Assembly (NCBI RefSeq): GCF_001644605.1
Contig: NZ_CP011388.1
Span: forward strand, 2,155,001-2,219,000
Length of the DNA: 64,000 nt
DNA from: Paenibacillus swuensis
Lineage (GTDB): Bacteria; Bacillota; Bacilli; Paenibacillales; DY6
Direction: 5' to 3'
Both the position numbers and the translations under genes were made by a program. Within the stretch, counting starts at the first letter, position 1. Every line of letters starts with the position of its first letter. Shown here piece after piece: positions 4,600-53,770 of this stretch. A model generated the notes under the pieces. That model ran no database searches. It was not told the DNA's origin and saw only the letters and a list, made by a program, of their open reading frames with translations.

Positions 4600-4637
4600 T
4601 TACTGCCCGAAATGTAAGTACTATTTGTCTGTATTTT

Positions 4638-4922: not shown

Positions 4923-4953
4923 AACTGACCACTGCTAAATGGTCAGTTTTGTT
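4918..4953. terminator. 14-bp palindrome with T-rich flanks, possible bidirectional terminator
   Basis: AACAAAACTGACCA (4918-4931) and TGGTCAGTTTTGTT (4940-4953) are perfect inverted copies around an 8-nt loop. T-rich sequence follows on both strands, so it could end transcription either way. A regulator-binding palindrome is the alternative. Confidence 0.5.
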
Positions 4954-5409: not shown

Positions 5410-7116
5410 TTGAATTTAATAAGTGAGTTTAGATATTTAGATTTTCGGAATTATCGGCAGGTGCGTATAGCTTGGGTGATGTTTTCTATAATCTCCGCGG
5501 TAATTGCCTTGGTATCAGGGTTTTATGGCTTTCATTATGAGGCTCATTATAATTTAGCCCAATCTATCCATTCTACTCTACGGCTTTTTATTTTTGATTT
5601 TGATATGCCCTTGAATGCTGCGGCTCCCTTTATGCTTGAGTTAGCAAGATGGTCCGCTGCAACTACTGTGCTTTCTTCGCTGTTATATATTATCCTTACG
5701 AGCAGCTATCACTATCTCAGATTTTTCTTCCTACGCTACAGATATAATAGAACAGTCATCGTCGGTCTTAATAAATATTCATTAGAGCTTACGATGGAGT
5801 TATTATCAAAGCACAAGAATGTTTGTGTCATTGATTACGATGGTCACCCTTCTTATATTGCAACTGCCGTACGGCAAGGTGCAGTTGTCATCTCTGGTCA
5901 TTTGTATGATGTAAAAAATCTTCAATCGGCTTGTATTCACCGAGCAAAACACATTGTTCTGTTTAGTCTGGAGGACTCTACTAATATAGAAACGCTGCTT
6001 CAAATAACAAGTTATTTCAATAAGGTCAAGATGCCTAGGCAACCCATCAAGGTAAAGGTTCATTTAAAGCAATTTGCCTTTGATGATATGTTGGATGCCA
6101 TTCAGCGGGATAACCAAGCAACTTATGAATTACATAGCTTTAACGTTTATGAAAATGCAATTAGAGTACTATTCAATAAATATCCTTTCTATGAAAATAC
6201 AACGGTTGAGCAGGGTTCGCGCTGTCCTCATCTTCTTATTGTTGGTTTCGGGCACAGTGGAGAACATGTGTTTATACAAGCTGCGAAGCTGGCCCACTTT
6301 CCCCGTCAGGAAAAAATGAAAATTTCAATTCTGGATTGCAATTCTAATGAGTACAAGGAAGTGGCGCAACAAAAGTACGCTCAATTGCTTACGATGTTTG
6401 ATGTGAAATTTATTGAAGCGAATGCTTTGTCCTATCCATTTGAACTATTAGAACCTCCGACTTATATCGTAGTAAGCACAAACCATGACATGGATAATAT
6501 ATCAATCGCGATGCGCTTGAAAGCTACTTTTGCAGAAACCAATGTTTACACGAAAATGTCATCCGATGCGGGGCTTTCTCCATGGCTGGATGCGAATCAA
6601 AATTTGTATTCTCGATTACACACGTTTAGTTTAGGAAGGGATGTCATTTCGGAGGAAGTTATTCTGGAGGATAAGCTTGAACAATTTGGCCGGAAAATTC
6701 ATGAGTTATATTGCGATATCGCTTCTGATGCAACAAGTTGGAATCAGGAGGCGCTGTTCAGCAGAATGTCTAACATTTCGCAGGCGGATCATTATAATGT
6801 GAAGCTTCGAGCGCTAGGACTAAAATATACCACGCAAAAAGAGCATGCATTGACTAAGGATGAGGTGCTTCATCTATTTATTCAGCACAGCGAGGTGTTG
6901 GCGATAAGTGAGCACAACCGCTGGAGGGCATATCACTACCTTTATGGCTGGAAGCCTGCTGTTATGAATCAACTCAAAGATTCGAATCTAAAGCTACATC
7001 CTGCATTAGTCGAGTGGGATCAGTTATCAGAGCGATATAAGCAATACAACCGGGAATTTGTGAATAAGATGTATGAAGTAATCGAGCATGCCAAATATTT
7101 TATTGTACGAATCTAG
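5410..7116 (+). CDS. Two-TM TrkA-N protein with C-terminal RyR domain (channel-like)
   Basis: First gene of the five-gene cluster, about 568 residues. Two hydrophobic helices lie near residues 18-41 (AWVMFSIISAVIALVSGFYG) and 77-105, separated by a short loop like that of 2-TM ion channels, but without a TVGYG-type selectivity filter. Next come two Rossmann-like TrkA-N/RCK units: the first has a degenerate glycine loop (VIVGLNKYSLEL), the second an intact one (LLIVGFGHSGEHV). The C-terminal ~75 residues match the RyR domain: ISEHNRWRAYHYLYGWKP, then LHPALVEWDQLSERYKQY. Known family: NAD-binding Kef/Trk-type membrane proteins, some with RyR domains. I infer a ligand-gated membrane effector. 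Start: TTG 5410 sits behind GATGAGGTGA; TTG 5392 is an alternative. Confidence 0.75.
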   Translation: MNLISEFRYLDFRNYRQVRIAWVMFSIISAVIALVSGFYGFHYEAHYNLAQSIHSTLRLFIFDFDMPLNAAAPFMLELARWSAATTVLSSLLYIILTSSYHYLRFFFLRYRYNRTVIVGLNKYSLELTMELLSKHKNVCVIDYDGHPSYIATAVRQGAVVISGHLYDVKNLQSACIHRAKHIVLFSLEDSTNIETLLQITSYFNKVKMPRQPIKVKVHLKQFAFDDMLDAIQRDNQATYELHSFNVYENAIRVLFNKYPFYENTTVEQGSRCPHLLIVGFGHSGEHVFIQAAKLAHFPRQEKMKISILDCNSNEYKEVAQQKYAQLLTMFDVKFIEANALSYPFELLEPPTYIVVSTNHDMDNISIAMRLKATFAETNVYTKMSSDAGLSPWLDANQNLYSRLHTFSLGRDVISEEVILEDKLEQFGRKIHELYCDIASDATSWNQEALFSRMSNISQADHYNVKLRALGLKYTTQKEHALTKDEVLHLFIQHSEVLAISEHNRWRAYHYLYGWKPAVMNQLKDSNLKLHPALVEWDQLSERYKQYNREFVNKMYEVIEHAKYFIVRI

Positions 7117-7160
7117 GTTATTTCTTTTTATATGTACATACCGAACGAGGTGCATTGTGA

Positions 7161-9404
7161 ATGGATTTCTCAAAAGTAATGGATATGGGGACTGGTGTAC
7201 CCATTTTTATAAGTTACGCTTCCTTGGATGTTGATCCTGTAAAAGAATTGGTTGCAAACATAGAAGAGAGGGGCTATTCGTGTTGGTATGCCAATCGAGA
7301 TATTCGTTCTTCTGCTCAATATAATACCGTCATCAATGAACAAATAAACAATTGTGAGATTATGATTGTAATGGTCACCCCTAATGTGGAGCATTCAGAG
7401 TTTGTTCCCAAAGAAATAAGCCTTGCCTATGAAAAGAAAAACGAAAAAAAACCGACGGTATTGCCAATTCTGTGGAATGTGGATAGCTATCCTAGTAATG
7501 TATCGCTGTTTCTAACCAACAATCAGCATCTTAACCGCAAGGCGTTTGAAGATTTGAATTCCTTCTACAATGTACTGGCTGAGGATATTGAGGAGATTTA
7601 TGCGAAGCGTGAGGACAGGGTGAGTGACGAGCGTATAGATCGTAAGCCTGCACGTATAAACAATTATTTTATCAAAAATCTCAATACGATATCCACTGAC
7701 TGGTTGAACCAGCAAGCTCAAACCTTTGTTCAGCCAACTTCTTACGAATTATTGCTTAATCGGCTTCGTAATGAACATTTCATCCAACTGCATGATAAAG
7801 GTCATACCGGCAAATTTACAGCCTCTGTTATCGCATTAATGGATTTACAGGTTCAAGAAATCTATGAGTGGTCAACGGTGAACAGTTTATCCGAGGTGCT
7901 TCGTTATGATATTCCGGAGAAATCAGGTGTGGTTCTTGAAGCGGGGGCTGACCTTGCAGGGTTCGTAGGACATGTAAACGAACGTGAAATCGAGAAGTAT
8001 TGTGAGTTTCTTAAAGGCTCCCAAAGTTATTTTATTCTAATCTCAGCCACATCTCAGCCACATCGATATTTCGTTAACCAGAATATCGCATGGGAGGGTG
8101 CTTCGGATTCGTATAATCTGCTAAGTACACATATATCTGTGCAGTATGCTAATGAGGATAGACAGCGGATGCTAGCTGTATTGAATAGAAATGACCTTAT
8201 CTCTTCTGTTATTTTCCCTAGGGACTGCAAGTCTTTAATTCAGAAAATAGAGTTGTTCATCCATGGCCAGCTGGATGAAGAGTCTTTTATCGCAAGCAAT
8301 TACATTAATACGAAAAATCGTATATCGGATTGGTTTGCTGATCATTCACATTATACCGATATCGCCTTTTACATAACGCTTACTTTGTATGAAAATTATC
8401 CTTTTGCACGTGTGATGAACAGAGCTTCAATATTGGCGAATAAGCTACTTCATTATTTGCAACAGGAGCCTAAAGAGGCGTCAACATTAAACAGAGATGC
8501 CTACTTAGAGAGGTTCCACGCACATGTAATTAGGAATAAAAAAATGGGGTATGTTGGAGAGGCTGTGGAGCAGGAGGTAGTTGCTTATAAATATGTGGAT
8601 GACAAAGGAGCAATATGGGATCACCTCTGGTCCCAGTATCCACAATATCAACCTATTATTGTAGAGTGGCTGGCGTCTATACAAAGAGAAGACAAAGCTA
8701 TGCGCAAAGTTATTATTGGTATACTTGTTCAACTGATGTCAAATTATGTAGAAGATATTATTCATGTGGTCATCCTAAAATGGTTAAAATCCGATAACGC
8801 TGGAGATCGTATCTTTCTAATCAGTGTACTTAAAGAGTATGCACGAAAAGATATTGGTGCGGCTAATTTAGTCTATCAATTAATAAATAAGTGGTTAAGT
8901 CTCAAGCAATATAATATGGAATGGATATCGGCAAAACTGCTGGGTACACATATCGCAAAGGTAAATTTTGAGGAGAGCCTACTGATGCTACGAAATCTGT
9001 ATTACTCTCCGAGTCCTAATATTAGAAACAATGCAAAACGCAGCTTTAACTACATAACCAGCGTAGTAACAGTGGAGCGCCAATATGAAGAGGCATATTA
9101 TCAATTCTGGATTGAATGGATTATTCGTATGGATGTTGATGCTGCAGAAGTGATTCTAATGATGACAGAGCTTTTTGGCCAGAATCTAGCGTTATTTCTT
9201 TACGCAGACACTAAATATGATAAGAGTTTTTGGCTAAAGTACTTTCTATCCTGCCGCTTCTTTGATGGGAAGGATTTCATTAAAGTCAGGGACGCCACTC
9301 AGCAACTATCCAGTAAAATATATCAAACCAGCAAGCAATTGCCGAAAAATGAGCAAAGATGCAGAGACTTCGAGGCATTATTCTCTAAGTATAAGCAAGC
9401 ATAA
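7161..9404 (+). CDS. TIR-domain protein with degenerate P-loop and helical-repeat tail
   Basis: Second gene of the cluster, 747 residues, cytoplasmic. Residues ~13-135 are a TIR domain: PIFISYASLDVDPVKEL, CWYANRDIRSSAQY, INNCEIMIVMV and FVPKEISLAYEKK, in which Glu85 occupies the place of the catalytic Glu of NAD-cleaving TIRs. Residues ~165-400 resemble a STAND-type NTPase in layout, but the Walker A place reads LHDKGHTGKFTAS (about 210-222), lacking the first Gly of the canonical loop, and no clear Walker B Asp is seen. From ~430 on the protein is all-helical with HEAT/TPR-like periodicity, as expected of a sensor or scaffold. TIR-STAND proteins are known anti-phage sensors. The gene starts 44 bases after its neighbour and precedes the SPFH gene by 15. 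Confidence 0.8.
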   Translation: MDFSKVMDMGTGVPIFISYASLDVDPVKELVANIEERGYSCWYANRDIRSSAQYNTVINEQINNCEIMIVMVTPNVEHSEFVPKEISLAYEKKNEKKPTVLPILWNVDSYPSNVSLFLTNNQHLNRKAFEDLNSFYNVLAEDIEEIYAKREDRVSDERIDRKPARINNYFIKNLNTISTDWLNQQAQTFVQPTSYELLLNRLRNEHFIQLHDKGHTGKFTASVIALMDLQVQEIYEWSTVNSLSEVLRYDIPEKSGVVLEAGADLAGFVGHVNEREIEKYCEFLKGSQSYFILISATSQPHRYFVNQNIAWEGASDSYNLLSTHISVQYANEDRQRMLAVLNRNDLISSVIFPRDCKSLIQKIELFIHGQLDEESFIASNYINTKNRISDWFADHSHYTDIAFYITLTLYENYPFARVMNRASILANKLLHYLQQEPKEASTLNRDAYLERFHAHVIRNKKMGYVGEAVEQEVVAYKYVDDKGAIWDHLWSQYPQYQPIIVEWLASIQREDKAMRKVIIGILVQLMSNYVEDIIHVVILKWLKSDNAGDRIFLISVLKEYARKDIGAANLVYQLINKWLSLKQYNMEWISAKLLGTHIAKVNFEESLLMLRNLYYSPSPNIRNNAKRSFNYITSVVTVERQYEEAYYQFWIEWIIRMDVDAAEVILMMTELFGQNLALFLYADTKYDKSFWLKYFLSCRFFDGKDFIKVRDATQQLSSKIYQTSKQLPKNEQRCRDFEALFSKYKQA

Positions 9405-9419
9405 TAAAGGAGAGATAGA

Positions 9420-10394
9420 ATGAGTAACTTTACGTTCATTAAACAAAGTTCCAATGTAGATTCGAGCATGTTCTCGCTGGCGAATGAGCCTGTGGCCTCC
9501 GTTCATGAAAATCTTGTATACATAAATGCTAAAGGTGAATTACATGTTATTCCTAGCGGCCAGCAGCTTTCAAGAAAGGTAAAGAAAGCAAACCGCTACC
9601 ATGCAGTATACTCAGTTTCAAAGGAAGCCCATGTCTATCAGCATACTGGTGAATATGAATCCTCTGACATTGGGCAATATTTTCAAATCTCCATAACACT
9701 GAAGCTGTCGGTTGGCGACCCTATTCAATATGTAATTAGTGATGAGCACGAGGTTTATGATTTGCTGGAACCCAAATTCAGAAATGCAATGAGAAAATAC
9801 GCAAAATATTATTCAATCCTTGATCACAAGAACGCCATTGGCAGCTTTGACGAAGTAATGGAGAGAATGGGAATCGCTGAAGAGCTTGAAAATTTTGGAT
9901 TGAAGGTAAAGTTAAATGATTACACGATTGATTTAACAACCGACTCTAAGAATTATTACAATCTCATGTTTAAGATGGTTCGAGACAAAGAGATTAAGAT
10001 AAAGCAGGATCAAATAGATATTGAAACAAGACATGAGAGTGAAAGATTGCAGGCGGCTATGCAGGAATCACGAACGAAAGAAATTATAAATAATTATATT
10101 ATTAATTTGCAATCAGATGGCTATGTATTGGCCACAGCAAAGCTTCAGCAGATATCACCCGAGCTGTACAGTCTGATGTATTCGAATTGGGAGCAAGAGA
10201 AGGATGAAGTGAAGCAGCTTGTTCAAAGCGGTATAAGTGTTGAGGACGCAAAGAGTATTGTAAAGGAGAAGCAGCTGGCTCTTGGTCAAGGACAAGCAAC
10301 ACCTATAGCAGTTAATAGCGTAAGAGAAAAGCCAAAGAAGTCGTTAGGTGAATTTTTTGCGGGAAATATTGATGACATGGAGGATCAACGATGA
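9420..10394 (+). CDS. SPFH/stomatin-like protein
   Basis: Third gene, 324 residues. Residues ~60-220 have the succession of an SPFH (band 7) domain: a beta-rich part (FQISITLKLSVGDPIQYVI), LEPKFRNAMRKYAKYYSI, then FDEVMERMGIAEELENFGLK and VKLNDYTIDL, and a charged coiled-coil helix (MVRDKEIKIKQDQIDIETRH). SPFH proteins oligomerise on membranes and scaffold proteases, channels or signalling complexes. No transmembrane helix is present, so membrane contact would come from the next gene product or from the N-terminal region. The C-terminal ~90 residues are a helical, low-similarity tail. The ribosome site is AAAGGAGAG, and the stop overlaps the next start by four bases (ATGA). Assignment rests on pattern, not on a search. 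Confidence 0.65.
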   Translation: MSNFTFIKQSSNVDSSMFSLANEPVASVHENLVYINAKGELHVIPSGQQLSRKVKKANRYHAVYSVSKEAHVYQHTGEYESSDIGQYFQISITLKLSVGDPIQYVISDEHEVYDLLEPKFRNAMRKYAKYYSILDHKNAIGSFDEVMERMGIAEELENFGLKVKLNDYTIDLTTDSKNYYNLMFKMVRDKEIKIKQDQIDIETRHESERLQAAMQESRTKEIINNYIINLQSDGYVLATAKLQQISPELYSLMYSNWEQEKDEVKQLVQSGISVEDAKSIVKEKQLALGQGQATPIAVNSVREKPKKSLGEFFAGNIDDMEDQR

Positions 10395-11188
10395 TAAACA
10401 GTGGAAATTTCCTCCAGATTATACAAACCCAGAACCCGACATTGCTGGAGGCTCTACAAGAAGGCATTAAGGGGTATCTTATTATTGGTTTTATTGCCTC
10501 CATTCTTCTGGTGTACATTGTCGTCCCGATGTGCATATGGTTGCTCAGCCAGCTACGGGGAAGGCTAATAAAGGTTCTTGCTGCATTCGTTAGACTGTTA
10601 GCATACATGGTAGATTTCCTATTTATCTTTTTCATGCGAATCTTTAGAGTAAAAAAAATTCCGAATATGCTGGATTTTAACGGAGACTGGCTTTCCAATT
10701 ACGCTAATAAGCAAACAGTAAATCGGCATGCGTTTATAATGAGTTATAAGAATAAACGCAAAAAAGTAGCACTCTTAATCATAGCATTTTTTATATCCTT
10801 CTTCACCCTTTCGGATAGATATAGGTGGTATGAAAAATCAGTAGCCGTTGAAAAAATATATTTGTCCATTAATGATGTCTTTACTTATGCGGATGGGCTT
10901 AAGGAGCAATTATTAGCCGAGAACAGTATCGCTGTGGCTGTAGAAAACGTCACTATCACTTACATTAAACTCAATAAAGGTGAACCCATGGGTAATATTC
11001 GTTCTGAGGGGTCATTAAGTGCTGAACAGATCGGTGTAGCCAAAGCAGGAGAAACACTTGAATTTTTACAGGAAGAGAAGAAAGACGGGAAGCGGATTTG
11101 GTATAAAGTAAGAACAGCTAAGGGTCAAGTGGGCTGGATTTCAGGTGCCATCAGTTCTAAGGTTGAGGTTGTTCAATCTAAACCATGA
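10391..11188 (+). CDS. Membrane protein with C-terminal SH3b domain
   Basis: Fourth gene, 265 residues, translationally coupled to the SPFH gene. Hydrophobic segments lie near residues 25-50 (YLIIGFIASILLVYIVVPMC), 58-82 (VLAAFVRLLAYMVDFLFIFF) and 120-138 (VALLIIAFFISFFTLS). The last ~75 residues are an SH3b fold, recognisable from GNIRSEGSLSAEQIGVAKAG, IWYKVRTAKGQVGWIS. SH3b domains usually bind peptidoglycan or proteins outside the membrane; with three helices and a cytoplasmic N-terminus the SH3b part would be outside. The place between the SPFH and RyR/CBS genes suggests it anchors a membrane complex. Exact topology is uncertain. Confidence 0.65.
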   Translation: MINSGNFLQIIQTQNPTLLEALQEGIKGYLIIGFIASILLVYIVVPMCIWLLSQLRGRLIKVLAAFVRLLAYMVDFLFIFFMRIFRVKKIPNMLDFNGDWLSNYANKQTVNRHAFIMSYKNKRKKVALLIIAFFISFFTLSDRYRWYEKSVAVEKIYLSINDVFTYADGLKEQLLAENSIAVAVENVTITYIKLNKGEPMGNIRSEGSLSAEQIGVAKAGETLEFLQEEKKDGKRIWYKVRTAKGQVGWISGAISSKVEVVQSKP

Positions 11189-11201
11189 GAGGAATAAGAT
11201 T

Positions 11202-12245
11202 ATGGTGATTAGTACATCAAATATAGTAATTCCTGACGATATTAAAGAGCTAATAGAGCTACTTGCTGAGAACATACATGATAAATGGGGGGAACAAAGG
11301 CTTGCAGAGGGCTGGAAATATGGCCCTTTCCGAGACGACATTCTGAAGACCCATCCTGGTCTGGTGCCTTATCATGATTTGAGCGAAAGCGAGAAGGAAT
11401 ATGATCGAATTACAGCATTGGAGACCATTAAGTTAATCTTAAAGCTGGGCTTCAGTATTGAGAGATCCAGTTATAGATTGTCAATAAAAAATAAAGAGGA
11501 TCAGTCTGGCCAGTCACTGCTGATCTTAAAAGACGATCAGGATATCAATCGCGCGGAGCGGTTCGAAATTGCGTTTAATCACATTCATCTGTTATTAAAA
11601 AGCTTATTAATGGATAGGAACGATAGTGCTCCATTTGTTTCCTTGGTTCATGAATTAAGCAGAAAGCATGCATTAATTGCAAGAGAGGCTGGTAAGCTGA
11701 AGCAATATGCTAAGCTGAGAAACGCATTGGTGCATGAGTTTTTTGGCAAAGCGAATTATATTGCTGTCCCTCATGAGGATGTGGTGGTGGACATTGAGCG
11801 TATTCAGCGCCTGCTAAATGTGCCGCCCACTGCGCTTTCTATTTCCAGCAAACGAGTGTTGTATATGAAACATAATGATCAGCTGATAACTGTCATGAGG
11901 CAAATGGAGAAATTTCAATGTACAAGCGTACCCATTTATCAGCGCAAGCAATTCATTGGTTTGTTAACGGAGGATGGAATTAATCGTTGGCTAGTTAAGC
12001 GCTTCGAATCTGCTAGCACTATAGAATTTAGCGGTGTTACTGCATATGAAGTTTTAAAATATGAATTAAGAACCAACGTCATCTTTATGGCGAGGGGCAC
12101 AAATGTATACGATATCGAGGATATATTCGAGCAAAAGATGCTAGCCAAACAAAAAGTAGACGCAATTATTATTTCGGACTCTGGTAGTGATCAACAATTC
12201 CCTTTGGGAATCATTACATCATGGGATTTAATTAAAATTGATTAG
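11202..12245 (+). CDS. RyR domain - HEPN-like - CBS pair protein
   Basis: Fifth gene, 347 residues, soluble. Residues ~13-88 are a textbook RyR domain: LAENIHDKWGEQRLAEGWKY, HPGLVPYHDLSESEKEYDR, ALETIKLILKLGFSI. Residues ~115-205 are helical and contain LRNALVHEF, which fits the HEPN RNase signature R-N-x3-H (Arg173, His178). Residues ~218-347 form two CBS motifs (TVMRQMEKFQCTSVPIY then FIGLLTEDGI; AIIISDSG then PLGIITSWDL), which typically bind adenine nucleotides. A nucleotide-sensing RNase or regulator is a reasonable inference, unproven. ATG 11202 is chosen because GAGAGGAA lies just upstream; the frame also extends back into the SH3b gene without a ribosome site. Confidence 0.75.
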   Translation: MVISTSNIVIPDDIKELIELLAENIHDKWGEQRLAEGWKYGPFRDDILKTHPGLVPYHDLSESEKEYDRITALETIKLILKLGFSIERSSYRLSIKNKEDQSGQSLLILKDDQDINRAERFEIAFNHIHLLLKSLLMDRNDSAPFVSLVHELSRKHALIAREAGKLKQYAKLRNALVHEFFGKANYIAVPHEDVVVDIERIQRLLNVPPTALSISSKRVLYMKHNDQLITVMRQMEKFQCTSVPIYQRKQFIGLLTEDGINRWLVKRFESASTIEFSGVTAYEVLKYELRTNVIFMARGTNVYDIEDIFEQKMLAKQKVDAIIISDSGSDQQFPLGIITSWDLIKID

Positions 12246-12390
12246 GCTTATTCGTATTAGGAGCAGGTAAGCTGAACTACAGAATGCTTCATAGCCTACA
12301 TAGTTCACTTTGTTTAATTATGCTAAAATTAGAGCACAATGAATTGGCTCACACTCCTGAGCTTACACACAGAACAGATGGAGGTTCAAC

Positions 12391-45019: not shown

Positions 45020-45084
45020 GTGACAAAAATGTCACATTGCCGCAACCTACATCGATGGATGGAAAATCCCAACCTGTCTATAGT
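45020..45084 (+). promoter_or_regulatory. BceR-type operator and promoter of the Bce-like transporter
   Basis: GTGACA-AAAA-TGTCAC (45020-45035) is a perfect inverted repeat of the kind bound by BceR-like response regulators upstream of bceAB-type genes. TATAGT at 45079-45084 with a poor -35 (TGGATG) 17 bases upstream suits an activator-dependent promoter. The transporter gene starts 26 bases later. Confidence 0.7.
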
Positions 45085-45109: not shown

Positions 45110-45856
45110 ATGCAATCCATAATCCAAACGAAGAATCTATCTAAAACCTACGGCGCGACTACGGTACTCAAAAATATTGATTTAACCATCCAACCCGGGG
45201 AACTCACGGCAATCATGGGGCCGTCAGGGTCAGGCAAGTCGACGCTGATGAATGTGTTGTCCACGATTGACCGATTATCCGGAGGTGAGGTGTGGTTAGA
45301 GGGGAAAGCGCTGCTTGATATGAAGAAGAGCGCGATGAGGCGGTTCCGGCAAGAGCGACTGGGGTTTATATTCCAGGATTACAACCTGTTGGACACGCTT
45401 ACGGTGAAGGAAAATATATTGCTGCCCTTATCGTTGCGCAACGTGAAGGCGGCCGAGATGGAGAGCCGGTTGCAGCCGATTATCGGGGCGCTCAACATCG
45501 AATCTATCCTGCATAAATACCCGAACGAAATTTCCGGCGGACAGAAGCAACGGGCGGCCTCGGCCAGGGCAATCATCACGAAGCCGGCGATTGTATTCGC
45601 CGATGAGCCCACAGGGGCGCTCGATTCCAGATCCGCCACCCAATTACTGGAGCAGTTAGTCGGGCTCAACGCGGCGTTCGGCACCACGATGATGATGGTG
45701 ACACATGATATCTACGCGGCAAGCTACTGCAAACGGGTCATTTTCCTGCGCGACGGCGGGATTGTAAACGAAATTTACGCCGGCGATCAGAACCAGAAGT
45801 CGTTCTACGACCGCATCCTGGAAACGCAGAGCCTGATGGGGGGCGCGCTGCGATGA
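45110..45856 (+). CDS. Bce-type ABC transporter ATP-binding protein
   Basis: 248 residues. Walker A GPSGSGKST, signature SGGQKQRAASARAI, Walker B VFADEPTGALD, His switch in VTHDIYAAS. LolD/BceA-like ATPase that powers the FtsX-type permease encoded next. Such pairs remove peptide antibiotics from lipid II cycle targets and signal to a dedicated kinase. AGGGAGGGAGC precedes the ATG. Confidence 0.92.
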   Translation: MQSIIQTKNLSKTYGATTVLKNIDLTIQPGELTAIMGPSGSGKSTLMNVLSTIDRLSGGEVWLEGKALLDMKKSAMRRFRQERLGFIFQDYNLLDTLTVKENILLPLSLRNVKAAEMESRLQPIIGALNIESILHKYPNEISGGQKQRAASARAIITKPAIVFADEPTGALDSRSATQLLEQLVGLNAAFGTTMMMVTHDIYAASYCKRVIFLRDGGIVNEIYAGDQNQKSFYDRILETQSLMGGALR

Positions 45857-47817
45857 GCCTGCTCGATCTGACGATCCGAAACGTCAAACGTAATTTCCGA
45901 CTGTACTCCATCTATTTATTCTCCATGATCATCGGTGTCATCATCCAGTTCACATTCTCTTCCGTCCTGTTTAATGAAGACATTATGAACGCGCTGAAAA
46001 ACCGCGATAATTATGAGACGGGTGTATCCATCGCTTCGGTCGTGGTGTTCCTGTTTATCATCTTCTTCATCCTGTACGCCAACTCGTTCTTCATGCGGCA
46101 ACGCAAAAAAGAGTTCGGCATGTACCTGTTGTACGGCTTGAACGAGAGGCAGATTACCCGGATGGTGTTCTACGAAACGCTGTTCATCAGTGCGATCGCG
46201 CTGGCTTCGGGCATCCTGCTTGGCGGACTGCTGTCCAAGCTGTTCGGTATGCTGCTCATGAGCTTAATGCAGTATGATCAGGTCATCTCGCTGGCTTTTC
46301 CGATCGAGGCGATCGTATTCACGGGGTTCTTATACCTGCTGCTCACCGTCATAATCACCGTCCAAAGTTATATCATGATTAACCGGGTACAGCTAACCGA
46401 ATTGTTCCACGCGAAACAAAAGATGGAGAAGCCCGTTCGCATTTCCCCCTTCATGGCCATCTTATCTATTCTGTTACTGGGCATGGCCTTCGGCTTAATC
46501 AGCAGCAGCAAACAATCGGCCGTTTGGAATGAGTACGCGACCTCAAGTCTGATCGCGGTCACGATGGGGATCATTGCGGGCACCTTCTTGTTCTTCCGTC
46601 AGTTCGCCGGCTGGTTGTTACAGACGCTGGCGCGCCGACGTACCTATCATGAAGGGAATACAGTGCTATGGACATCCTCCTTGCGCTTTCAGGTGAGGGG
46701 CAATACGTTGAACCTGACGTTCATATCGCTGTTTAGCGCGGCGATCATCATGTTGCTTTGTTTTGTCACGATTAACTATAAAGTCCAATTCGAGGCAGTG
46801 GGGCGGAATTTACCGAATGACATCGCGTTTCAATCGCAGGATCCTGCTGCCAACAAGCAGATTGATGAGATCATTCAAAGCTCCGGGCATGCGGTTCAAT
46901 ACCATCTGAAGCCGGAGTTGCTGATTGCTGTGCCGGTAACGGACCGGGGGGTGGCCTGGGACAATCCGGAATATTATGAAGACAATGTTTTGCTGGTTTC
47001 GGAGGGGGCGTACAATGAATTAATTTCTTTAAGAGGTCATGACCGGCGCGTAGACCTGCAAGGGAATGAAGCGGCTGCCCTCTCGCAAGGTTCAGACTTC
47101 CCCAAGCCTTATGCGAAGGGCGTGGAGCCTGCCTTTACACTCAAGACGAATCAGGAAACTACGTTGAAGCTGGTAGAGAAAAAGGATTACGCGTACTTAG
47201 GATGGTCATCCAGTCCGACCGAGTCGATGGGACGCAAGCCGGCGGTGCTCGTCATTTCCGATGAGTTGTATGCAAGTTTAAAGGAGGGGGCGGCCAAGAG
47301 GGCTTACGAGATCTATGCGCTTGAGGATGCGGAAGATGCGGAGCCATTATCGAAGCAGGTTCACGCCATCGTCACGCAGAACACAGACACCTACTATTCT
47401 TCATTCGCGGACGTGTACTCCAAACAGATCGAGAGTTCCTCGTTGATGTTGTTTGCCAGCGGATTTCTGGCCCTGCTTGCCCTGTTCGCGCTCGCGAGCG
47501 TCATTTATTTCAAGCAGCTGCGCGAGGCTACGGATGAACGGATGCAATATGCGATTCTGCGCAAGCTCGGCATGGATAACGGCCAAATGAAAAGCGTTAT
47601 ACGCAAGCAGCTTCTGTTCGTCTTCTTGCCGCCGCTCGTGCTCGGTGTGTTGCATAGCTGGTTCATCATTAAGTATTACATCCTGGACTCGGTGCAAGAC
47701 TTCCCTGAGCTCCATGGCATGGTGTGGGGCATCATGGGCGTATACTTTCTGATTTACTTGCTGTTCTACGTCTCCTCTACGAATCTGTATTACAAAATCG
47801 TAAGTACGAATGCTTAA
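45853..47817 (+). CDS. Bce-type ABC permease (FtsX family)
   Basis: 654 residues, ten helices, with the large outside domain between helices 7 and 8 (about residues 310-525) that is the hallmark of BceB-type permeases. Segments: NSFFMRQRKKEFGMYLLYGL in the first cytoplasmic loop, ERMQYAILRKLGMDNGQMKS near the C-terminus. Overlaps the ATPase gene by four bases. Likely acts both as resistance pump and sensor for the RR/HK pair at 49280-50937. Confidence 0.92.
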   Translation: MSLLDLTIRNVKRNFRLYSIYLFSMIIGVIIQFTFSSVLFNEDIMNALKNRDNYETGVSIASVVVFLFIIFFILYANSFFMRQRKKEFGMYLLYGLNERQITRMVFYETLFISAIALASGILLGGLLSKLFGMLLMSLMQYDQVISLAFPIEAIVFTGFLYLLLTVIITVQSYIMINRVQLTELFHAKQKMEKPVRISPFMAILSILLLGMAFGLISSSKQSAVWNEYATSSLIAVTMGIIAGTFLFFRQFAGWLLQTLARRRTYHEGNTVLWTSSLRFQVRGNTLNLTFISLFSAAIIMLLCFVTINYKVQFEAVGRNLPNDIAFQSQDPAANKQIDEIIQSSGHAVQYHLKPELLIAVPVTDRGVAWDNPEYYEDNVLLVSEGAYNELISLRGHDRRVDLQGNEAAALSQGSDFPKPYAKGVEPAFTLKTNQETTLKLVEKKDYAYLGWSSSPTESMGRKPAVLVISDELYASLKEGAAKRAYEIYALEDAEDAEPLSKQVHAIVTQNTDTYYSSFADVYSKQIESSSLMLFASGFLALLALFALASVIYFKQLREATDERMQYAILRKLGMDNGQMKSVIRKQLLFVFLPPLVLGVLHSWFIIKYYILDSVQDFPELHGMVWGIMGVYFLIYLLFYVSSTNLYYKIVSTNA

Positions 47818-47974
47818 TTTCATACAAACACTAACAATCCAATGGCGAAAGAATGTCTAAAGGCTTATCGATTTCTATGTATAACGAATTGTATAATAAG
47901 TTGCGAGAGAGGGTTTATGCGTCCAGTCTTCGAAAAGTAGGAATTACTACAAGTAGAACGAAGCGAGGGATACC

Positions 47975-49219
47975 ATGATTCAGATTGCAACGGACCAAAG
48001 CAACAACGGTTTCACCGAAACAGGATTGCGCAGAATGCGCGACGTATTGGCACGGCATGTCGAGTCCGGGAAGATCCCTGGGCTGGTTGCCCTGGTCAGC
48101 CGCAACGGCGAGACGCATGTTGAAGCGCTCGGCACGATGCGGCATGACGGCGGAGCACCGATGCGCCGGGACACGATCTTCCGGATGGCGTCCACTTCCA
48201 AGCCGGTCGCGGTCGCGCCGGTCATGATCCTCCTCGACGAGTGCAAACTGCGGCTGGACGACCCGGTAGATCTGTGGCTGCCCGAACTCGCTGACCGCCA
48301 GGTGCTGAAGCGACCGGACGGCCCGCTGGACGAAACCGTGCCGGCGCGGCGGCCGGTCACGGTACGCGACCTGCTGACCTCCACGTTCGGGCTCGGTATT
48401 GATATATCGGCGCTGGGCGCTCCGATTATGGGCGCGATCTTCGCGAATGGACTAACGCCCGATGGGCCAACGCCGATGCCCGAACCGGATGAGTGGATGC
48501 GCCGCCTTGGATCGCTCCCGCTGATGTACCAGCCGGGAGAGCAATGGCAGTACCACATCAGCAACGATCTTCTCGGCGTACTCGTCGCCAGGGTTACGGG
48601 CCAAATGTTCGAGACGTTCCTGCGCGAACGCATCTTCGAGCCCCTGGGCATGAAGGACACCGGTTTCCATGTGCCGTCCGAGAAGATCGACAGGTTGCCG
48701 CCCCTATATGCACCTGACCCGCAGACCGGAGAGTTCCACGTATGGGATGAGGCCGAGGGGGGACGCCACAGCCAGCCTCCGGCGTTCCAGGGCGGCGGTG
48801 GCGGACTTAACTCCACGGCCGACGACTTCCACGCCTACTACCGGATGCTGCTGAATCATGGCATGCACGGGAACGAACGGATCCTGTCCCGGGCCGCCGT
48901 AGAGCTGATGACCACCAACCGCCTCAATGCCGAGCAGCAAGCCGCCCGAAACGCCTTGGCCAGCAACAATGTCCATAGGTCATTCGGCCAAGGGCAGCAC
49001 GGCGGATGGGGCTTTGGTATGGCGGTGCGCACCTACCGCGGTGATTACGCGCCCATCGGCCAGTACGGCTGGGACGGCGGAAGCGGCACCTCGACCTACG
49101 CCGACCCGGAAAACCAGCTTACCGGAATCCTGCTCACTCAGGTCGGGATGTCCACTGGGGATTCGGCGCGGGCTATACACGATTTCTGGACTACGGTCTA
49201 CCAGGCCGTTGAAGACTAA
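47975..49219 (+). CDS. Serine hydrolase, EstB/class C beta-lactamase-like
   Basis: 414 residues. SxxK motif MASTSKPV with nucleophile Ser73 and Lys76; the Tyr motif reads QYHISNDLLGVLV, aligning with the YSxxxDVLG form of EstB-type (family VIII) esterases; the third motif is near GWDGGSGTS. No signal peptide, so cytoplasmic esterase is more likely than a secreted beta-lactamase. The gene is strikingly GC-rich (48301-48360 has 46 G+C of 60), and sits between the Bce transporter and its two-component genes, suggesting transfer from a high-GC donor such as an actinobacterium. Site GCGAGGG before the ATG. Confidence 0.87.
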   Translation: MIQIATDQSNNGFTETGLRRMRDVLARHVESGKIPGLVALVSRNGETHVEALGTMRHDGGAPMRRDTIFRMASTSKPVAVAPVMILLDECKLRLDDPVDLWLPELADRQVLKRPDGPLDETVPARRPVTVRDLLTSTFGLGIDISALGAPIMGAIFANGLTPDGPTPMPEPDEWMRRLGSLPLMYQPGEQWQYHISNDLLGVLVARVTGQMFETFLRERIFEPLGMKDTGFHVPSEKIDRLPPLYAPDPQTGEFHVWDEAEGGRHSQPPAFQGGGGGLNSTADDFHAYYRMLLNHGMHGNERILSRAAVELMTTNRLNAEQQAARNALASNNVHRSFGQGQHGGWGFGMAVRTYRGDYAPIGQYGWDGGSGTSTYADPENQLTGILLTQVGMSTGDSARAIHDFWTTVYQAVED

Positions 49220-49254
49220 CAGCGAGCCAGCGGTTTGAAGATTGTTATAATAGT

Positions 49255-49291
49255 TAGCCCTCATCAATCAAGGTGAGGGCTATTTATTTTG
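49255..49291. terminator. Bidirectional terminator between hydrolase and kinase genes
   Basis: TAGCCCTCA/TGAGGGCTA perfect 9-bp stem then TTTATTTT on the plus strand. The stop codon of the minus-strand kinase lies inside the stem. Confidence 0.75.
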
Positions 49292-50269
49292 CAATATGCT
49301 CAAATAGGGGTCGTGGGTTCTGGGGAAATGGATGGTGAACTCGGTAAAGCGGCCTACAGCGGATTCACAAGTGATGTAGTGGCCCAACTTCCTCGAAAGC
49401 TCCTGGGCGAGATAAAGCCCCATGCCTGTCGATTTCACATGCGCGCGTCCATTCGTGCCCGTAAATCCCCGGTTGAACACCCGCGGCAGATCCTTGGCAT
49501 CAATGCCGATCCCGTTATCCCTAATGATCAGCAACTTTTCTTGCCGCGTAGTGCGTGTTGAGATGCGGATTTCTCCGTTGTTGTTCGTGTACTTCAAGCT
49601 GTTCGTAAGGAGTTGGTTGATGATAAAGGAAAGCCACTTCATATCGCTTTGAACGATGGTTGACTGCAGGTCCAGCTGGATTCTGATTTTATGGGAAATG
49701 AAGGTTTTGGCGTGATTTCGGACAACGGCTTTCACGAGCGGCTCCAGATCACTGTTGATGATTTCGTAATCTTCCTTGAAGCTATCCAGTTTGGCGTAGT
49801 ACAACGCCTGGTCCACGTAATGCTCAATCCGCGACACCTCTTCCTCCAAGCTTCGGGGATCGACCTCCGTTTGCTGCATCAAGCGAAGGACGGAAATCGG
49901 CGTCTTGATCTCGTGAAACCAGGAAACGATAAAATCATAGTATTCCAACTGCTTCGCTTGCAATTCGTTGAGCGCCTGGATTTGGCTGCGTTCGAGCTGT
50001 TCCAGCGCGTCGCGATAAGCTTCCGCTTCCAGGGAAAGCGGCTCGGTCTGTTCTTCCCCCAGTTGGCGGATGGCATGAACATTTGTGAAATAACGGTGAA
50101 TGAAGAAGCCCGACAGGCACAACACTACTAGCGTCAGCGCATAGAAGAACGTCGGCCAGCGGAATGAATTTTGCGGATCTGTAATGAGCACCGTCCAGGT
50201 GACAAAGAAAGTGATCGCGCACAGGATGAGGTAAGGTCTCTCATATTTCATGAATCGCCACCAGCTCAT
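49280..50269 (-). CDS. Intramembrane-sensing histidine kinase (BceS-like)
   Basis: 329 residues. Two close helices (PYLILCAITFFVTWTVLI; FFYALTLVVLCLSGFFIHRY) with almost no outside loop, the mark of Bce-type kinases that sense through the transporter. H-box FHEIKTPISVLRLM, N-box QLLTNSLKYTNN, G-boxes IRDNGIGIDAKDLP and STGMGLYLAQ. Its start overlaps the response regulator stop (ATGA). Confidence 0.92.
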   Translation of the reverse strand: MSWWRFMKYERPYLILCAITFFVTWTVLITDPQNSFRWPTFFYALTLVVLCLSGFFIHRYFTNVHAIRQLGEEQTEPLSLEAEAYRDALEQLERSQIQALNELQAKQLEYYDFIVSWFHEIKTPISVLRLMQQTEVDPRSLEEEVSRIEHYVDQALYYAKLDSFKEDYEIINSDLEPLVKAVVRNHAKTFISHKIRIQLDLQSTIVQSDMKWLSFIINQLLTNSLKYTNNNGEIRISTRTTRQEKLLIIRDNGIGIDAKDLPRVFNRGFTGTNGRAHVKSTGMGLYLAQELSRKLGHYITCESAVGRFTEFTIHFPRTHDPYLSILQNK

Positions 50270-50937
50270 TCGATGATATACCCCATTCCTTTGCGCGTCG
50301 CGATAAATTCCTCCAGCCCCAGCAAGGCAATTCGGCGCCTCAGACGATTCACGTTCACCGTCAGAGTATTGTCGTCGATAAATTGTTCGTCATTCCACAG
50401 CACCTGCATCAGATCTTCCCGGGAAACGATCCGGCCGATATGACGCATGAGGGTTTGAAGAATAATGAACTCGTTCCGCGACAATTCAGCGCTCTGCTCC
50501 CCATATTGAACCGACGAGTTGGACAAGTGAAGAACCAGCTGGCGGTGAGAGATCACAAGACTTTCATCCTGATAGGTATAGTTGCGCCGGAGCAGCGCGC
50601 TGACTTTGGCTACGAGCACCCCAAGGTCGAACGGCTTTACAACATAATCATCCGCACCCATGTTAATCGCCATAATGACATCCATGTTCTGATTCCGGGA
50701 GGACAGGAATATAATCGGCACCTTGGACACGGAACGAATCCGCTGACACCAATAAAAACCGTCATACATTGGGAGACTGACATCCATCAGCACCAAGTGG
50801 GGTTGGGCGGCGGTGAATTGTTCTGTAATATGTTCAAAAGAAGTCACTTCCAGCACCTCGTATTGCCATTTGCGCAACGAATCGGCTACGATAGTTCTGA
50901 TCTTCTCGTCATCTTCCACAATCATGATTTGAAACAT
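50266..50937 (-). CDS. Response regulator, OmpR/BceR-like
   Basis: 223 residues from the ATG behind GGAGGTATTCCT; longer frames have no ribosome site. Receiver domain with acidic pocket IVEDDEK, phospho-Asp in LVLMDVSLPMYDG, and Lys in DDYVVKPFD; C-terminal winged helix ends TRKGMGYIIE. Presumed activator of the Bce-type transporter through the GTGACA-N4-TGTCAC site at 45020. Confidence 0.92.
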   Translation of the reverse strand: MFQIMIVEDDEKIRTIVADSLRKWQYEVLEVTSFEHITEQFTAAQPHLVLMDVSLPMYDGFYWCQRIRSVSKVPIIFLSSRNQNMDVIMAINMGADDYVVKPFDLGVLVAKVSALLRRNYTYQDESLVISHRQLVLHLSNSSVQYGEQSAELSRNEFIILQTLMRHIGRIVSREDLMQVLWNDEQFIDDNTLTVNVNRLRRRIALLGLEEFIATRKGMGYIIE

Positions 50938-51048: not shown

Positions 51049-51744
51049 ATGAAGCGTACTACAATTTTGATAGCGGATGATGAGGTTGAGATTGCGGATC
51101 TGATTGCGCTGCATTTAGAGAAAGAGGGCTACCGGATCATCAAGGTGTCCGACGGGAGAGAAGCGGTTCAAGCGATAGAGTCGCATGCGATCGATCTGGT
51201 CATTCTGGATATTATGATGCCCAAGCTGGATGGGTATGAAGTGACAAGGATCATTCGGGAGAAGCACCATATGCCGATTATTTTCCTGAGTGCGAAGACA
51301 TCCGACCTCGATAAAATCACAGGACTGGTCATGGGGGCCGATGATTACATGACGAAACCGTTCAACCCTATGGAACTGGTAGCCCGGGTGAATGCCCAGC
51401 TGCGGCGTTTCCGGCAATTGAATCAGACGGCGGCCGGTCATAGTTCCACGCTTGAAGCGGGGGGATTGGTAATCGACCCTGATAAACGCACCGTCACGCT
51501 GTATGGCGGCAACATTGAGCTGACACCTAAAGAATTCGATATTCTTTACCTGCTCGCCAGTCACTCGAAGAACGTGTTCAGCGCGGAGCATATTTTTCAA
51601 CAGGTATGGGGAGACGCCTATTACGAAAGCGGGAATACGGTCATGGTGCATATTCGTACGCTGCGCAAAAAACTGGGCGAAGACAGAAACAAGAATAAAC
51701 TCATAAAAACGGTATGGGGGGTGGGATATACGTTCAATGGATAA
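51049..51744 (+). CDS. Response regulator, OmpR family (VanR-like)
   Basis: 231 residues; ATG behind TAGGAGCG. Receiver LIADDEVEIADLIALHLEKE, phospho-Asp in LVILDIMMPKLDGYEV, Lys in DDYMTKPFN; winged-helix DNA-binding part with IELTPKEFDILYLLASHSKN and VWGVGYTF. VanR/PhoP branch. Stop overlaps the kinase start by eight bases. Divergent from the Bce-type regulator gene, separated by 111 bases. Confidence 0.9.
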   Translation: MKRTTILIADDEVEIADLIALHLEKEGYRIIKVSDGREAVQAIESHAIDLVILDIMMPKLDGYEVTRIIREKHHMPIIFLSAKTSDLDKITGLVMGADDYMTKPFNPMELVARVNAQLRRFRQLNQTAAGHSSTLEAGGLVIDPDKRTVTLYGGNIELTPKEFDILYLLASHSKNVFSAEHIFQQVWGDAYYESGNTVMVHIRTLRKKLGEDRNKNKLIKTVWGVGYTFNG

Positions 51745-52834
51745 CATGATGCGAAGTTTTCGGTTCAAAATGATCGTGTTACTAGGTGTGAGTATGCTGC
51801 TCTCCGGCGCCATCACGTATGTGTTCTATCGGATCCTTCAGTATTATTATGAAGGGGTTCTGGCGGGAGATCCCATTGCTCAATTCCGTCAAAAGATTAG
51901 TAATTTTGGGGATTTAAACTTCTTTTTGATCTTTTTTATCCCTTTGGCCATCCTGTTTTTCTTTTTGCTTACGAAACCTTACGCCGTTTATTTTCATGAG
52001 ATTTCCAAGGGCATACATCATCTCGCGAACGGTGATTTTAAGAACAGAGTAAACATCTCATCCCATGATGAATTCGGGGATATCGGAAGGGCCATGAACC
52101 TGGCTAGCGCGAAATTGCAGGAAGCTGTGGAACGAGGGGATTTCGCCGAGAGCAGTAAAGACCAGCTGATCTTGAACCTGGCGCATGATCTGCGCACGCC
52201 GCTGACCTCTGTGCTCGGTTACCTGGACTACATTCTGCAGGACGATCAGTTGTCACCCGAACAGATCAAACATTATGCAACGATTGCTTTCACTAAATCC
52301 GAGCGTTTGGAGAAGCTGATCGATGAGCTTTTTGAAATCACAAGAATGAATTACGGCCATATCACGATCGAGAAGAAACCGATTGATTTAAGCGATTTGC
52401 TTATCCAGCTGCATGAAGAGATGTACCCTGTTTTAGAGAAAAATCAACTGACAGGCCGACTGGACATTACGCCGCATATGGTTATGAACGGGGACGGGGA
52501 AGTGTTGGTGCGCGTGTTTGAGAATCTGCTGGCGAATGCGGTTCGTTACGGCAAGGACGGTCAATATGTTGACATTCGCTGCGTACCGGATGAAGGAAAC
52601 GCGGTGGTGGTGCAGATTATCAACTACGGGGATTCCATTCCCCCGGAAGAGCTTCCCTATATCTTTAATATGTTCTATACCGGGGACCGGGCGCGTTCGC
52701 ATCAAGGGGGAAGCACGGGACTTGGACTGTACATTGCGAAGAATATCGTGGAGCAGCATCAGGGAACGATTACCGCGGAAAGCAGTGTCATCCGGACCGT
52801 TTTTGAAGTAAGATTGCCGCGTGGAACCATTTAA
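51737..52834 (+). CDS. Sensor histidine kinase (VanS-like)
   Basis: 365 residues. Two helices (MIVLLGVSMLLSGAITYVFY; NFFLIFFIPLAILFFFLL) with a ~40-residue outside loop, HAMP at ~85-135, H-box LNLAHDLRTPLTSVLGYLD, N-box FENLLANAVRYGK, G-box STGLGLYIAKNIVEQH. Overall similar to VanS-type kinases linked to D-Ala-D-Ala metabolism. Partner of the preceding response regulator. Confidence 0.9.
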   Translation: MDNMMRSFRFKMIVLLGVSMLLSGAITYVFYRILQYYYEGVLAGDPIAQFRQKISNFGDLNFFLIFFIPLAILFFFLLTKPYAVYFHEISKGIHHLANGDFKNRVNISSHDEFGDIGRAMNLASAKLQEAVERGDFAESSKDQLILNLAHDLRTPLTSVLGYLDYILQDDQLSPEQIKHYATIAFTKSERLEKLIDELFEITRMNYGHITIEKKPIDLSDLLIQLHEEMYPVLEKNQLTGRLDITPHMVMNGDGEVLVRVFENLLANAVRYGKDGQYVDIRCVPDEGNAVVVQIINYGDSIPPEELPYIFNMFYTGDRARSHQGGSTGLGLYIAKNIVEQHQGTITAESSVIRTVFEVRLPRGTI

Positions 52835-52835
52835 A

Positions 52836-52855
52836 ATTTAAGATAAATTTAAGAT
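52836..52855 (+). promoter_or_regulatory. Direct repeat, probable response-regulator site before vanY-like gene
   Basis: ATTTAAGAT occurs at 52836-52844 and again at 52847-52855, an 11-bp period, the usual arrangement for OmpR/PhoB-type dimers. It lies just after the kinase stop and 70 bases before the carboxypeptidase gene. Confidence 0.6.
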
Positions 52856-52924
52856 TTGCCCCACTTCTTTTTAAACTGTTTTCCATATCCTAAAGATCGT
52901 AAGGGATGAAGGAGGAAGCGGTTC

Positions 52925-53770
52925 ATGAAGAAGTGGTTTTTGGCGTTGATTTTGCTGTTGTCTGCGGGATATATATTGACTCAAGGGAAGTCATTTACAT
53001 TGGATGTTCCGAACGAGACAAACCCACTCCTTAAAGGGGAAAGTGTGTCGATCACATTGAACAAAAACCAGATTTTCCAAGGCGACTTGTTATTGGTCAA
53101 TAAACATTATCCTGTCCGGGAACAGGGCGTGAAGTCCGATGTGGTTACTTTGGCGCAGCATGAGGAGCTTGTTCGGGGTTATGGGTTGCTGGATCCGTCC
53201 ATACAGTCTTCCAAAAGCGTGATGGAACCTTTTCTCGCCATGATGGATGCCGCCGCGCAAGACGGGGTTAACCAATTTCTGATCAACAGCGGTTATCGGG
53301 ACGCCAAACGTCAGAATGAGCTCTATCTGGAAATGGGACAGGAGTACGCGTTGCCGGCGGGGTACAGCGAGCATAATCTGGGGTTGTCGCTGGATATCGG
53401 TTCCGCGCAAGAAGAGATGAGCCGGGCGCCGGAAGGACGATGGCTGCAGAAGCATGCGTGGTCCCACGGCTTTATATTGCGATACCCCAAGGACAAGTCA
53501 GCCGTTACGGGCATCCAGTATGAACCTTGGCATTTTCGCTATGTGGGCTTGCCGCATAGTGTGATCATGAAAGAGAAGAACCTAACTTTAGAGGAGTACC
53601 TGGAATATTTGAAGGAACATCCGACCCTTTCCGCGACCGTTGAGGGAGTGGAATATCAAATTCAATATTATCGGGTTTCGGGGAACATGACCATCCAAGT
53701 GCCTGCCCATCAACAGGTTGAGCTGTCCGGCAACAACTCGGATGGTGTGATTGTGACGGTACGTGTTTAA
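52925..53770 (+). CDS. D-Ala-D-Ala carboxypeptidase, M15 family (VanY-like)
   Basis: 281 residues. N-terminal signal anchor (WFLALILLLSAGYILTQG), so it acts outside the membrane. Zinc-site motifs SEHNLGLSLDIG (His and Asp) and EPWHFRYVG (second His), plus the family NSGYRDAKRQNELY. Removes the terminal D-Ala of peptidoglycan stems, lowering vancomycin targets. A C-terminal ~50-residue beta segment extends beyond the catalytic domain. Third gene of the VanRS-like operon or under its own promoter downstream of the direct repeat; no vanHAX-type ligase genes are in the window, so full glycopeptide resistance is not implied. Confidence 0.9.
   Translation: MKKWFLALILLLSAGYILTQGKSFTLDVPNETNPLLKGESVSITLNKNQIFQGDLLLVNKHYPVREQGVKSDVVTLAQHEELVRGYGLLDPSIQSSKSVMEPFLAMMDAAAQDGVNQFLINSGYRDAKRQNELYLEMGQEYALPAGYSEHNLGLSLDIGSAQEEMSRAPEGRWLQKHAWSHGFILRYPKDKSAVTGIQYEPWHFRYVGLPHSVIMKEKNLTLEEYLEYLKEHPTLSATVEGVEYQIQYYRVSGNMTIQVPAHQQVELSGNNSDGVIVTVRV

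Follow-up and report, generated by a model that had tools for sequence, protein, structure and literature searches.

A gene for a family VIII-type serine hydrolase in Paenibacillus swuensis lies between the two arms of a Bce module, a position at which no gene was recognised in most of the relatives inspected. We consider it about an even bet (probability of roughly 0.5) that a laterally spread esterase was captured here into the Bce operon, where it would be transcribed by read-through under BceR control and would detoxify an ester-containing natural product. The usual partners of the gene, the comparison with the empty slot of relatives, and the insertion on the terminator side are new here. 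Coordinates refer to the window, which is the whole stretch of 64,000 nucleotides analysed. The features concerned are as follows.

45020–45035, no strand assigned: Bce operator-like site GTGACA-N4-TGTCAC, 90 nt upstream of bceA (motif scan; predicted site)
45110–45856, + strand: BceA-like ABC ATPase (PF00005; 72–85% identity in nine relatives)
45853–47817, + strand: BceB-like permease with approximately ten TM segments and a loop of approximately 225 aa (PF02687, FtsX; hydropathy)
47818–47974, + strand: A+T-rich spacer of 157 nt with 38% GC (motif scans, genome-wide uniqueness)
47975–49219, + strand: family VIII-type serine hydrolase (PF00144) of 414 aa (Pfam 1.1e-62, motifs, fold model)
49220–49232, + strand: 3' edge common to other copies, at most about 13 nt past the stop codon (pairwise blastn ends)
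49255–49282, no strand assigned: hairpin resembling a terminator, located after the hydrolase gene where the arms converge (11-pair stem and T run)
49280–50269, − strand: BceS-like histidine kinase with two TM segments and a short linker (PF02518; hydropathy)
50266–50937, − strand: BceR-like response regulator (PF00072 and PF00486; 68–86% identity in nine relatives)

The Bce module and the slot between its arms

All four Bce genes are clustered, with bceA and bceB on the + strand and the kinase and regulator genes converging on them from the − strand. The module has the same four adjacent components, the same kinase type, and the same large-loop permease as the BceRS-BceAB modules of Firmicutes, but differs from them in its convergent arms and in the foreign gene between these. 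Kinases of such modules are described as having two TM segments with a loop no longer than 12 aa, and the permeases as having ten TM segments, with a loop exceeding 170 aa between TM7 and TM8 (PMC3023708). The hydropathy peaks of the present kinase (12–30 and 39–57) correspond to the former description. The permease gave 11 peaks, two of them overlapping, with a gap at 307–533 ahead of the last three, which by this coarse test corresponds to the latter. The best NCBIfam match of the kinase is SapS, below the cut-off. Non-Bce genes have been counted in Bce neighbourhoods, and interruption as such is already known (figure legend of PMC3023708).

The earlier note on this DNA had proposed that the gene splits a module that is normally contiguous. 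In a first search, covering 118 other genomes of the order, the BceB and kinase orthologues co-occurred in the same nine genomes. The arms of these nine modules are always convergent and 17–240 nt apart (measured between tblastn match ends), with no gene between them, and a hairpin was recognised by eye at the equivalent gap in eight of the nine. When the search was widened to a larger group, 43 of the 391 other genomes of the order gave a BceB match at E ≤ 1e-180, and 34 of the 43 were inspected. The kinase gene is convergent with bceB within 1.5 kb in 31 of these and farther away in three. In 30 of the 34, the gap between the arms measures 17–492 nt and contains no recognised gene. The proposal is thus borne out in that the module is usually uninterrupted in relatives; it is not, however, a single operon, since the arms are convergent and meet tail to tail. 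The present hydrolase occupied the slot in none of the 34 inspected relatives, and different genes were found there in four.

G279: a PF00144 protein of 506 aa, in the same slot and on the same strand as bceB
G347: a PG_binding_1 protein and an unknown protein
G297: a DoxX protein, a TIM-barrel/GMC oxidoreductase protein of 740 aa, and smaller ORFs
G309: a PIN protein and an ORF of 95 aa

The signals around the hydrolase gene bear on how it may be transcribed. The pattern RTGACR-N4-YGTCAC was found 89–151 nt upstream of bceA in all ten modules compared (the present one and the nine relatives; a stricter pattern, tried earlier, had matched three of the ten), and its single match in the window is the predicted site upstream of bceA. 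The spacer between bceB and the hydrolase gene gave no terminator-like, consensus-promoter, or operator match, the consensus promoter scan being weak. The terminator-like hairpin (fold z-score of −4.79 for 49216–49300) falls between the hydrolase and kinase genes, so that, compared with the relatives, the gene is placed between the bceB stop codon and the terminator. Since the sole operator-like site is upstream of bceA and the spacer carries none of the signals scanned for, read-through from bceAB is the simplest source of transcript, and the hydrolase gene is probably transcribed in this way. Against our reading, the 157-nt A+T-rich spacer could carry a promoter of its own.

The occupation of the slot by other genes in four of the 34 relatives also weighs against our reading, because it marks the slot as permissive, and position alone need not mean function. 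The hydrolase gene may instead be a neutral passenger in a permissive gap, expressed from its own promoter and without a functional tie to the Bce module. We regard this as quite possible, although at less than even odds. Three of the four occupied slots in relatives (G347, G297, and G309) hold genes without an obvious Bce link, and elsewhere (loci L026, L064, and L070) the hydrolase gene occurs without the regulator or partner markers tested, which are described below; both observations would suit a passenger. On the other hand, the gene is co-directional with bceAB, with no terminator found before it and the convergent hairpin behind it. Moreover, its ORF is intact (414 aa, 1245 nt, + strand), and the dN/dS values of approximately 0.12–0.28 against five relatives indicate purifying selection. 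Passive insertion is almost as likely as a functional link to the Bce module, and the link is plausible.

A stronger form of such a link would be that selection has repeatedly placed PF00144 hydrolases in the Bce slot, thereby extending the resistance range of the module. PF00144 genes fill two of the five occupied slots seen (the present one included), the other being that of G279 (L168) with the same orientation. Nevertheless, we hold this functional pairing to be unlikely: there are only two cases, and the two proteins apparently have different locations (cytosol in the present case, outside in G279) and different versions of motif III. The G279 protein is 28% identical to the hydrolase over 200 aa and shows, by eye, a signal-peptide-like N-terminus, hydrophobic C-terminal segments, and H-x-G instead of W-x-G as motif III.

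Two other stretches of the window deserve description. At 51049–53770, adjoining the Bce module, genes for VanR and VanS of the F/M type are followed by a VanY gene, all somewhat below the curated cut-offs. No vanHAX was found in the neighbouring ORFs, and Peptidase_M15 (VanX) had no match in the whole genome; judged from these matches, the stretch is an orphan van-like regulatory trio. Its VanY gene begins approximately 3.7 kb after the hydrolase gene. In three Paenibacillus genomes (L065, L066, and L098), VanY-like carboxypeptidases 43–51% identical to the window VanY are encoded approximately 2–5 kb from the hydrolase gene. The second stretch, at 4000–12250, is low in GC (0.34–0.42) and encodes the following proteins.

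5392–7116: TrkA_N-RyR protein
7161–9404: TIR-domain protein
10391–11188: SH3_3 protein
11145–12245: RyR-CBS protein

PADLOC gave weak matches to TIR effectors in this stretch, which is possibly a conflict or defence island.

The predicted enzyme

Judged by motifs and fold, the hydrolase is probably a family VIII-type esterase with the beta-lactamase fold, its activity being predicted. In an alignment of 52 proteins, S73 and K76 of the nucleophile motif S-x-x-K (S73-T-S-K76), Y193 as the catalytic Tyr of the Y-x-x motif (Y193-H-I), and W366 and G368 of the W-x-G motif (W366-D-G368), which replaces K-T-G, are invariant, and the G-G-x-G motif (GGGG, 274–277) is at least 90% conserved. These four motifs are those of subfamily VIII.1 of family VIII, and the presence of G-x-S-x-G marks subfamily VIII.2 (PMC9795927). 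A regular expression for the latter matched once, at G391-MST-G near the C-terminus; this match is probably incidental, since most of the aligned relatives read GMSTP there. Hydropathy gave no hydrophobic N-terminal segment, and the hydrolase is probably cytosolic. In the predicted reaction, Ser73 would attack an ester or similar acyl bond, aided by Lys76 and Tyr193, and water would then free the product from the acylated enzyme.

The predicted structure (pLDDT 87.5, pTM 0.90) had EstG, EH7, EstU1, and Est-Y29 as its top fold matches, and EstB matched more poorly. Calling the protein EstB-like is therefore loose, since EstB is a more distant match than EstG, EH7, and EstU1 in both sequence and fold. 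EstG of Caulobacter (PDB 7uda, 7u1b, and 7u1c) is the best PDB sequence match (E 5e-58) and also the best fold match (33–34% identity, TM 0.80–0.82 by query length); it is a serine esterase and has, like the model of the hydrolase, the beta-lactamase fold. EstG is periplasmic, whereas the present hydrolase has no signal peptide and is found in Gram-positive bacteria. EstG has a cyclic glucose hexamer as its substrate (PMC11389396). EH7 (subfamily VIII.1) and EstU1 (family VIII) share the SxxK, Yxx, WxG, and GGxG motifs and the fold with the hydrolase, but at an identity of only about 29–31%. PsEstA, a family VIII esterase from Paenibacillus sp. with the W-x-G motif and nitrocefin activity (PMC6995599), resembles the hydrolase by this description (Paenibacillus, family VIII, W-x-G).

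The fold, together with the hydrolysis of nitrocefin by EH7 (PMC9795927) and PsEstA, raises the question of whether beta-lactam hydrolysis is the cellular role of the enzyme. We consider this improbable. A class C beta-lactamase was rejected because the protein reads Y-H-I and W-D-G, not Y-A-N and K-T-G, and because the class C NCBIfam model scored 54 bits against a cut-off of 415, the other listed bla models scoring lower. The lack of a hydrophobic N-terminus also speaks against this role, as does the report that the majority of family VIII enzymes have no beta-lactam activity (PMC9795927). Two further assignments were discarded. The model of methyl acetate hydrolase AcmB (NF052559) scored 154 bits against a curated cut-off of 550. 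BahA, a bacitracin-inactivating Paenibacillus enzyme, was weighed because of the Bce neighbour; being related to PF12695 (alpha/beta-hydrolase) and having TM helices (PMC5155152), it is unrelated to the hydrolase.

Composition, spread, and usual neighbours of the gene

The total GC of the hydrolase gene is 63.1%, a value matched by just 0.12% of all 1245-nt segments of the 64 kb. The bin at 48001–49000 has the highest GC among the 64 1-kb bins, and six of the seven starts of 60-mer runs with at least 46 G/C in the window fall inside the gene; the peak pointed out earlier at 48301–48360 holds exactly 46 G/C in 60 bases. The GC3 of 0.771 ranks first among the 46 ORFs of at least 200 aa, of which the others have a mean of 0.556 (sd 0.092) and a maximum of 0.761. 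However, GC3 is also elevated in the adjacent Bce genes (BceA, 0.714; BceB, 0.688; kinase, 0.669), and part of the contrast therefore comes from codon positions 1 and 2. The claim of a GC far above the neighbours thus stands for total GC and is less true for GC3, which is 0.67–0.71 in the Bce genes.

Relatives of the hydrolase (E ≤ 1e-60) were found in nine of the 118 other genomes of the order, in 12 copies, ten of which are 75–85% and two 56% identical to it; one of the ten (L027, in G091) is seemingly frameshifted near its end, by eye. From a scan of further genomes, the best 80 of 575 confirmed loci were taken (61 Actinomycetota, 16 Bacillota), with identities of up to 84–85%. Within the stretches examined, no BceB or kinase match was found near any of the 12 copies in the nine relatives or near any of the best 80 of 575 loci. 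Vertical inheritance with position and composition unchanged, which the note had named as refuting its idea, was thus not seen. The actinobacterial affinity suggested earlier was confirmed: among these best 80 loci, identities of up to 84% to Streptomyces and 82% to Nonomuraea proteins were found, and the tree described below agrees. All 16 Bacillota copies among the best 80 have a higher GC (0.53–0.65) than their flanks (0.36–0.58), whereas the Actinomycetota copies among them are close in GC to their own flanks. The high GC common to the Bacillota copies indicates that it marks the history of the gene and not an event in this strain alone.

The synonymous divergence between phyla is low. The hydrolase shares 84% amino acid and 85.7% nucleotide identity with that of Streptomyces sp. 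378 (dS 0.38) and 86.6% nucleotide identity with that of Bacillus sp. OV166 (dS 0.34), whereas dS of bceA and bceR within the order is 1.56–2.63 in seven of 11 comparisons and not computable in the other four. The high GC3 common to the copies lowers dS, so that this evidence of transfer is strong but not clean. The low divergence and the occurrence of copies on plasmids uphold the foreign origin proposed in the earlier note.

The phylogeny that the note had called for placed the hydrolase in a 13-row Bacillota clade (99/95), which is nested in a 49-row clade (100/98) of 35 Actinomycetota and 14 Bacillota. This careful tree comprises 92 rows, with a bootstrap that is not fully settled, and excludes the row L129 with its three in-frame stops; it was used in place of a quick tree, in which the constrained tree scored 28 log units higher. 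The second Bacillota clade, also of 13 rows (99/93), is placed elsewhere in the careful tree. Two entries into Bacillota had been considered, since the trees show two or three groups, and were dropped because the AU test did not reject a single Bacillota clade (p 0.212 for the careful tree and p 0.735 for the quick tree). A single ingroup Actinomycetota clade was likewise not rejected (p 0.093). Taken together, the identities and the patchy distribution make transfer of the hydrolase gene across phyla well supported, and its direction is only favoured. Vertical inheritance within the order of an intrinsically GC-rich gene, which the GC-richness of the 16 Bacillota copies would suit, is very improbable indeed, because the gene is patchy, was not seen at the same place in the relatives and loci examined, and is closer to Streptomyces at synonymous sites than bceA and bceR are within the order.

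The edges of the shared segment suggest what was transferred. In pairwise blastn, the similarity to other copies begins in the last 10–21 nt or so before the start codon, which include the ribosome-binding region, and ends at the 3' edge listed above, suggesting that a bare gene (the ORF with its ribosome-binding region) arrived. The spacer at 47818–47974 occurs once in the genome. No direct repeat joining both flanks was found at a minimum length of 10, and a shorter target duplication is possible. Six phage records matched the hydrolase at no more than 34.6% identity.

The genome contains further pieces of the gene. A 3' part (L017; nt 312 to the end) is located at 2.14 Mb, upstream of TetR, pentapeptide-repeat, and DrrAB-like genes, and a 5' part (L018; nt 1–309) at 1.59 Mb. 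By eye, each abuts another gene that seems to be cut off there as well. The two pieces are nearly complementary in extent and had suggested a single gene cut in two. When they were placed separately, the 3' piece fell into the second Bacillota group (14 rows, 97), and the 5' piece has no firm placement; one gene cut in two is thus not claimed, as the placements do not agree or resolve. If the placement of the 3' piece is right, the lineage would have entered this genome more than once. The copy between the Bce arms is the only intact one of the close copies found in the genome; a fourth match, with 27% identity, represents a distant paralogue.

Many copies elsewhere adjoin a regulator and a partner gene. 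The pairs found are HTH_38-MarR with DUF4097 (Toastrack) or DUF1048, PadR with DUF1048, PadR with a protein carrying C-terminal pentapeptide repeats, and TetR with pentapeptide repeats. A regulator or partner marker (tblastn, at least 40% identity) was found near 39 of 81 other copies: 24 of 56 in Actinomycetota and seven of 16 in Bacillota, both from the best 80 of 575, and eight of the nine remaining copies. One of the 39 (L022) was counted by a 36-residue PadR remnant alone. The tally kept L129 and omitted the eight most distant loci, the two 56% copies, the two pieces from the present genome, and L025, a duplicate of L104. The 42 copies without any of the tested markers weigh against our main reading.

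The same partner types (DUF1048/PadR, PadR-pentapeptide, and DUF4097) characterise the HAAS-PadR dyads and Toastrack systems. HAAS-PadR has been proposed as an alternative to two-component systems, HAAS-pentapeptide proteins have been described in Firmicutes, and DUF1048 has been assigned to the HAAS superfamily (PMC11237479). The N-terminal part of the pentapeptide-repeat fusion had no Pfam match at the threshold used, and its HAAS label therefore rests on that paper. In its main text, the words esterase and lactamase do not occur, and the two mentions of hydrolase refer to other enzymes. The copy in the window is unlike these systems, as no regulator and partner gene of the HAAS-PadR/Toastrack type adjoins it there. 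We found no published account of this hydrolase in such operons in a search of mainly titles and abstracts, which largely left subscription literature uncovered.

Some neighbourhoods point to export or antibiotic resistance. In Listeria, a daunorubicin-type exporter is repressed by the PadR protein LftR, whose gene accompanies that of a DUF1048 protein (PMC4517056). In Nonomuraea sp. G32, DrrAB-like exporter genes lie approximately 1 kb upstream of the hydrolase gene on the opposite strand, and in Shimazuella such genes lie approximately 3 kb downstream of it; both are 69–73% identical to the genes of the 2.14-Mb locus of the present genome. In a plasmid collection, the hydrolase gene was found in 20 records, one of which, at 11.85 Mb, may be a chromosome. 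Plasmid p-LAD1 (L174) carries a relative (82.6%) near MFS, ArsR, virginiamycin B lyase (Vgb), and Vat genes, and in one record the hydrolase gene adjoins that of a small multidrug export protein. It follows PadR-DUF1048 on a Streptomyces plasmid and adjoins an IS3 transposase gene on a Peribacillus plasmid, with a PadR gene approximately 4 kb away. From the neighbours and the plasmid context, the enzyme may remove an ester-containing toxic compound. The hydrolysis of an antibiotic ester or lactam, which the note had proposed, would have indirect support from one plasmid resistance island and from the drug-exporter neighbours.

Two smaller observations concern these loci. A conserved palindrome with the core CATACCATCGGTTGGTATG lies upstream of the hydrolase gene, between it and the TetR gene, in L023 and L025, and in L002 a palindrome with this core lies downstream of the TetR gene; it is likely a TetR operator, as predicted from the sequence. 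A protein of about 135–150 aa without a Pfam match is encoded downstream of or near the hydrolase gene in 15 of the 56 Actinomycetota loci (L087, L084, L114, and others).

Proposed capture and its meaning

In the reading that we prefer, the hydrolase lineage would move laterally among Actinomycetota and soil Bacillota, often behind a regulator and a partner protein. A bare copy would have entered a convergent Bce module behind bceB and ahead of the terminator, reading the same way as bceAB, and would be expressed by read-through from the BceR-controlled bceA promoter. Sensing of a cell-wall-active compound by the module would then raise the level of the hydrolase, and the enzyme would detoxify an ester-containing natural product. 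We infer read-through, control by BceR, detoxification, and the direction of transfer from sequence. A broader proposal, which is tentative and on the whole doubtful, is that the hydrolase is a transferable output enzyme re-plugged between sensors (HAAS-type, HTH_38-MarR/Toastrack, TetR/pentapeptide, and, here, BceRS) and that the slot between bceB and the terminator is a capture site used at least twice by PF00144 genes.

If the gene is a passenger, it would represent ordinary lateral transfer into an intergenic gap. The lineage itself is a good candidate for a natural-product-inactivating esterase: its members are up to 84% identical across phyla, occur on plasmids, in one case close to Vgb and Vat genes, and repeatedly follow PadR-type regulators. 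If the capture-site proposal is true, the slot would add enzymatic detoxification to a sensing pump, both in this genome and in G279. If read-through and induction are true, an enzyme would have been moved between classes of stress sensors by insertion ahead of a terminator, which may be one route for antibiotic-sensing pumps to gain functions.
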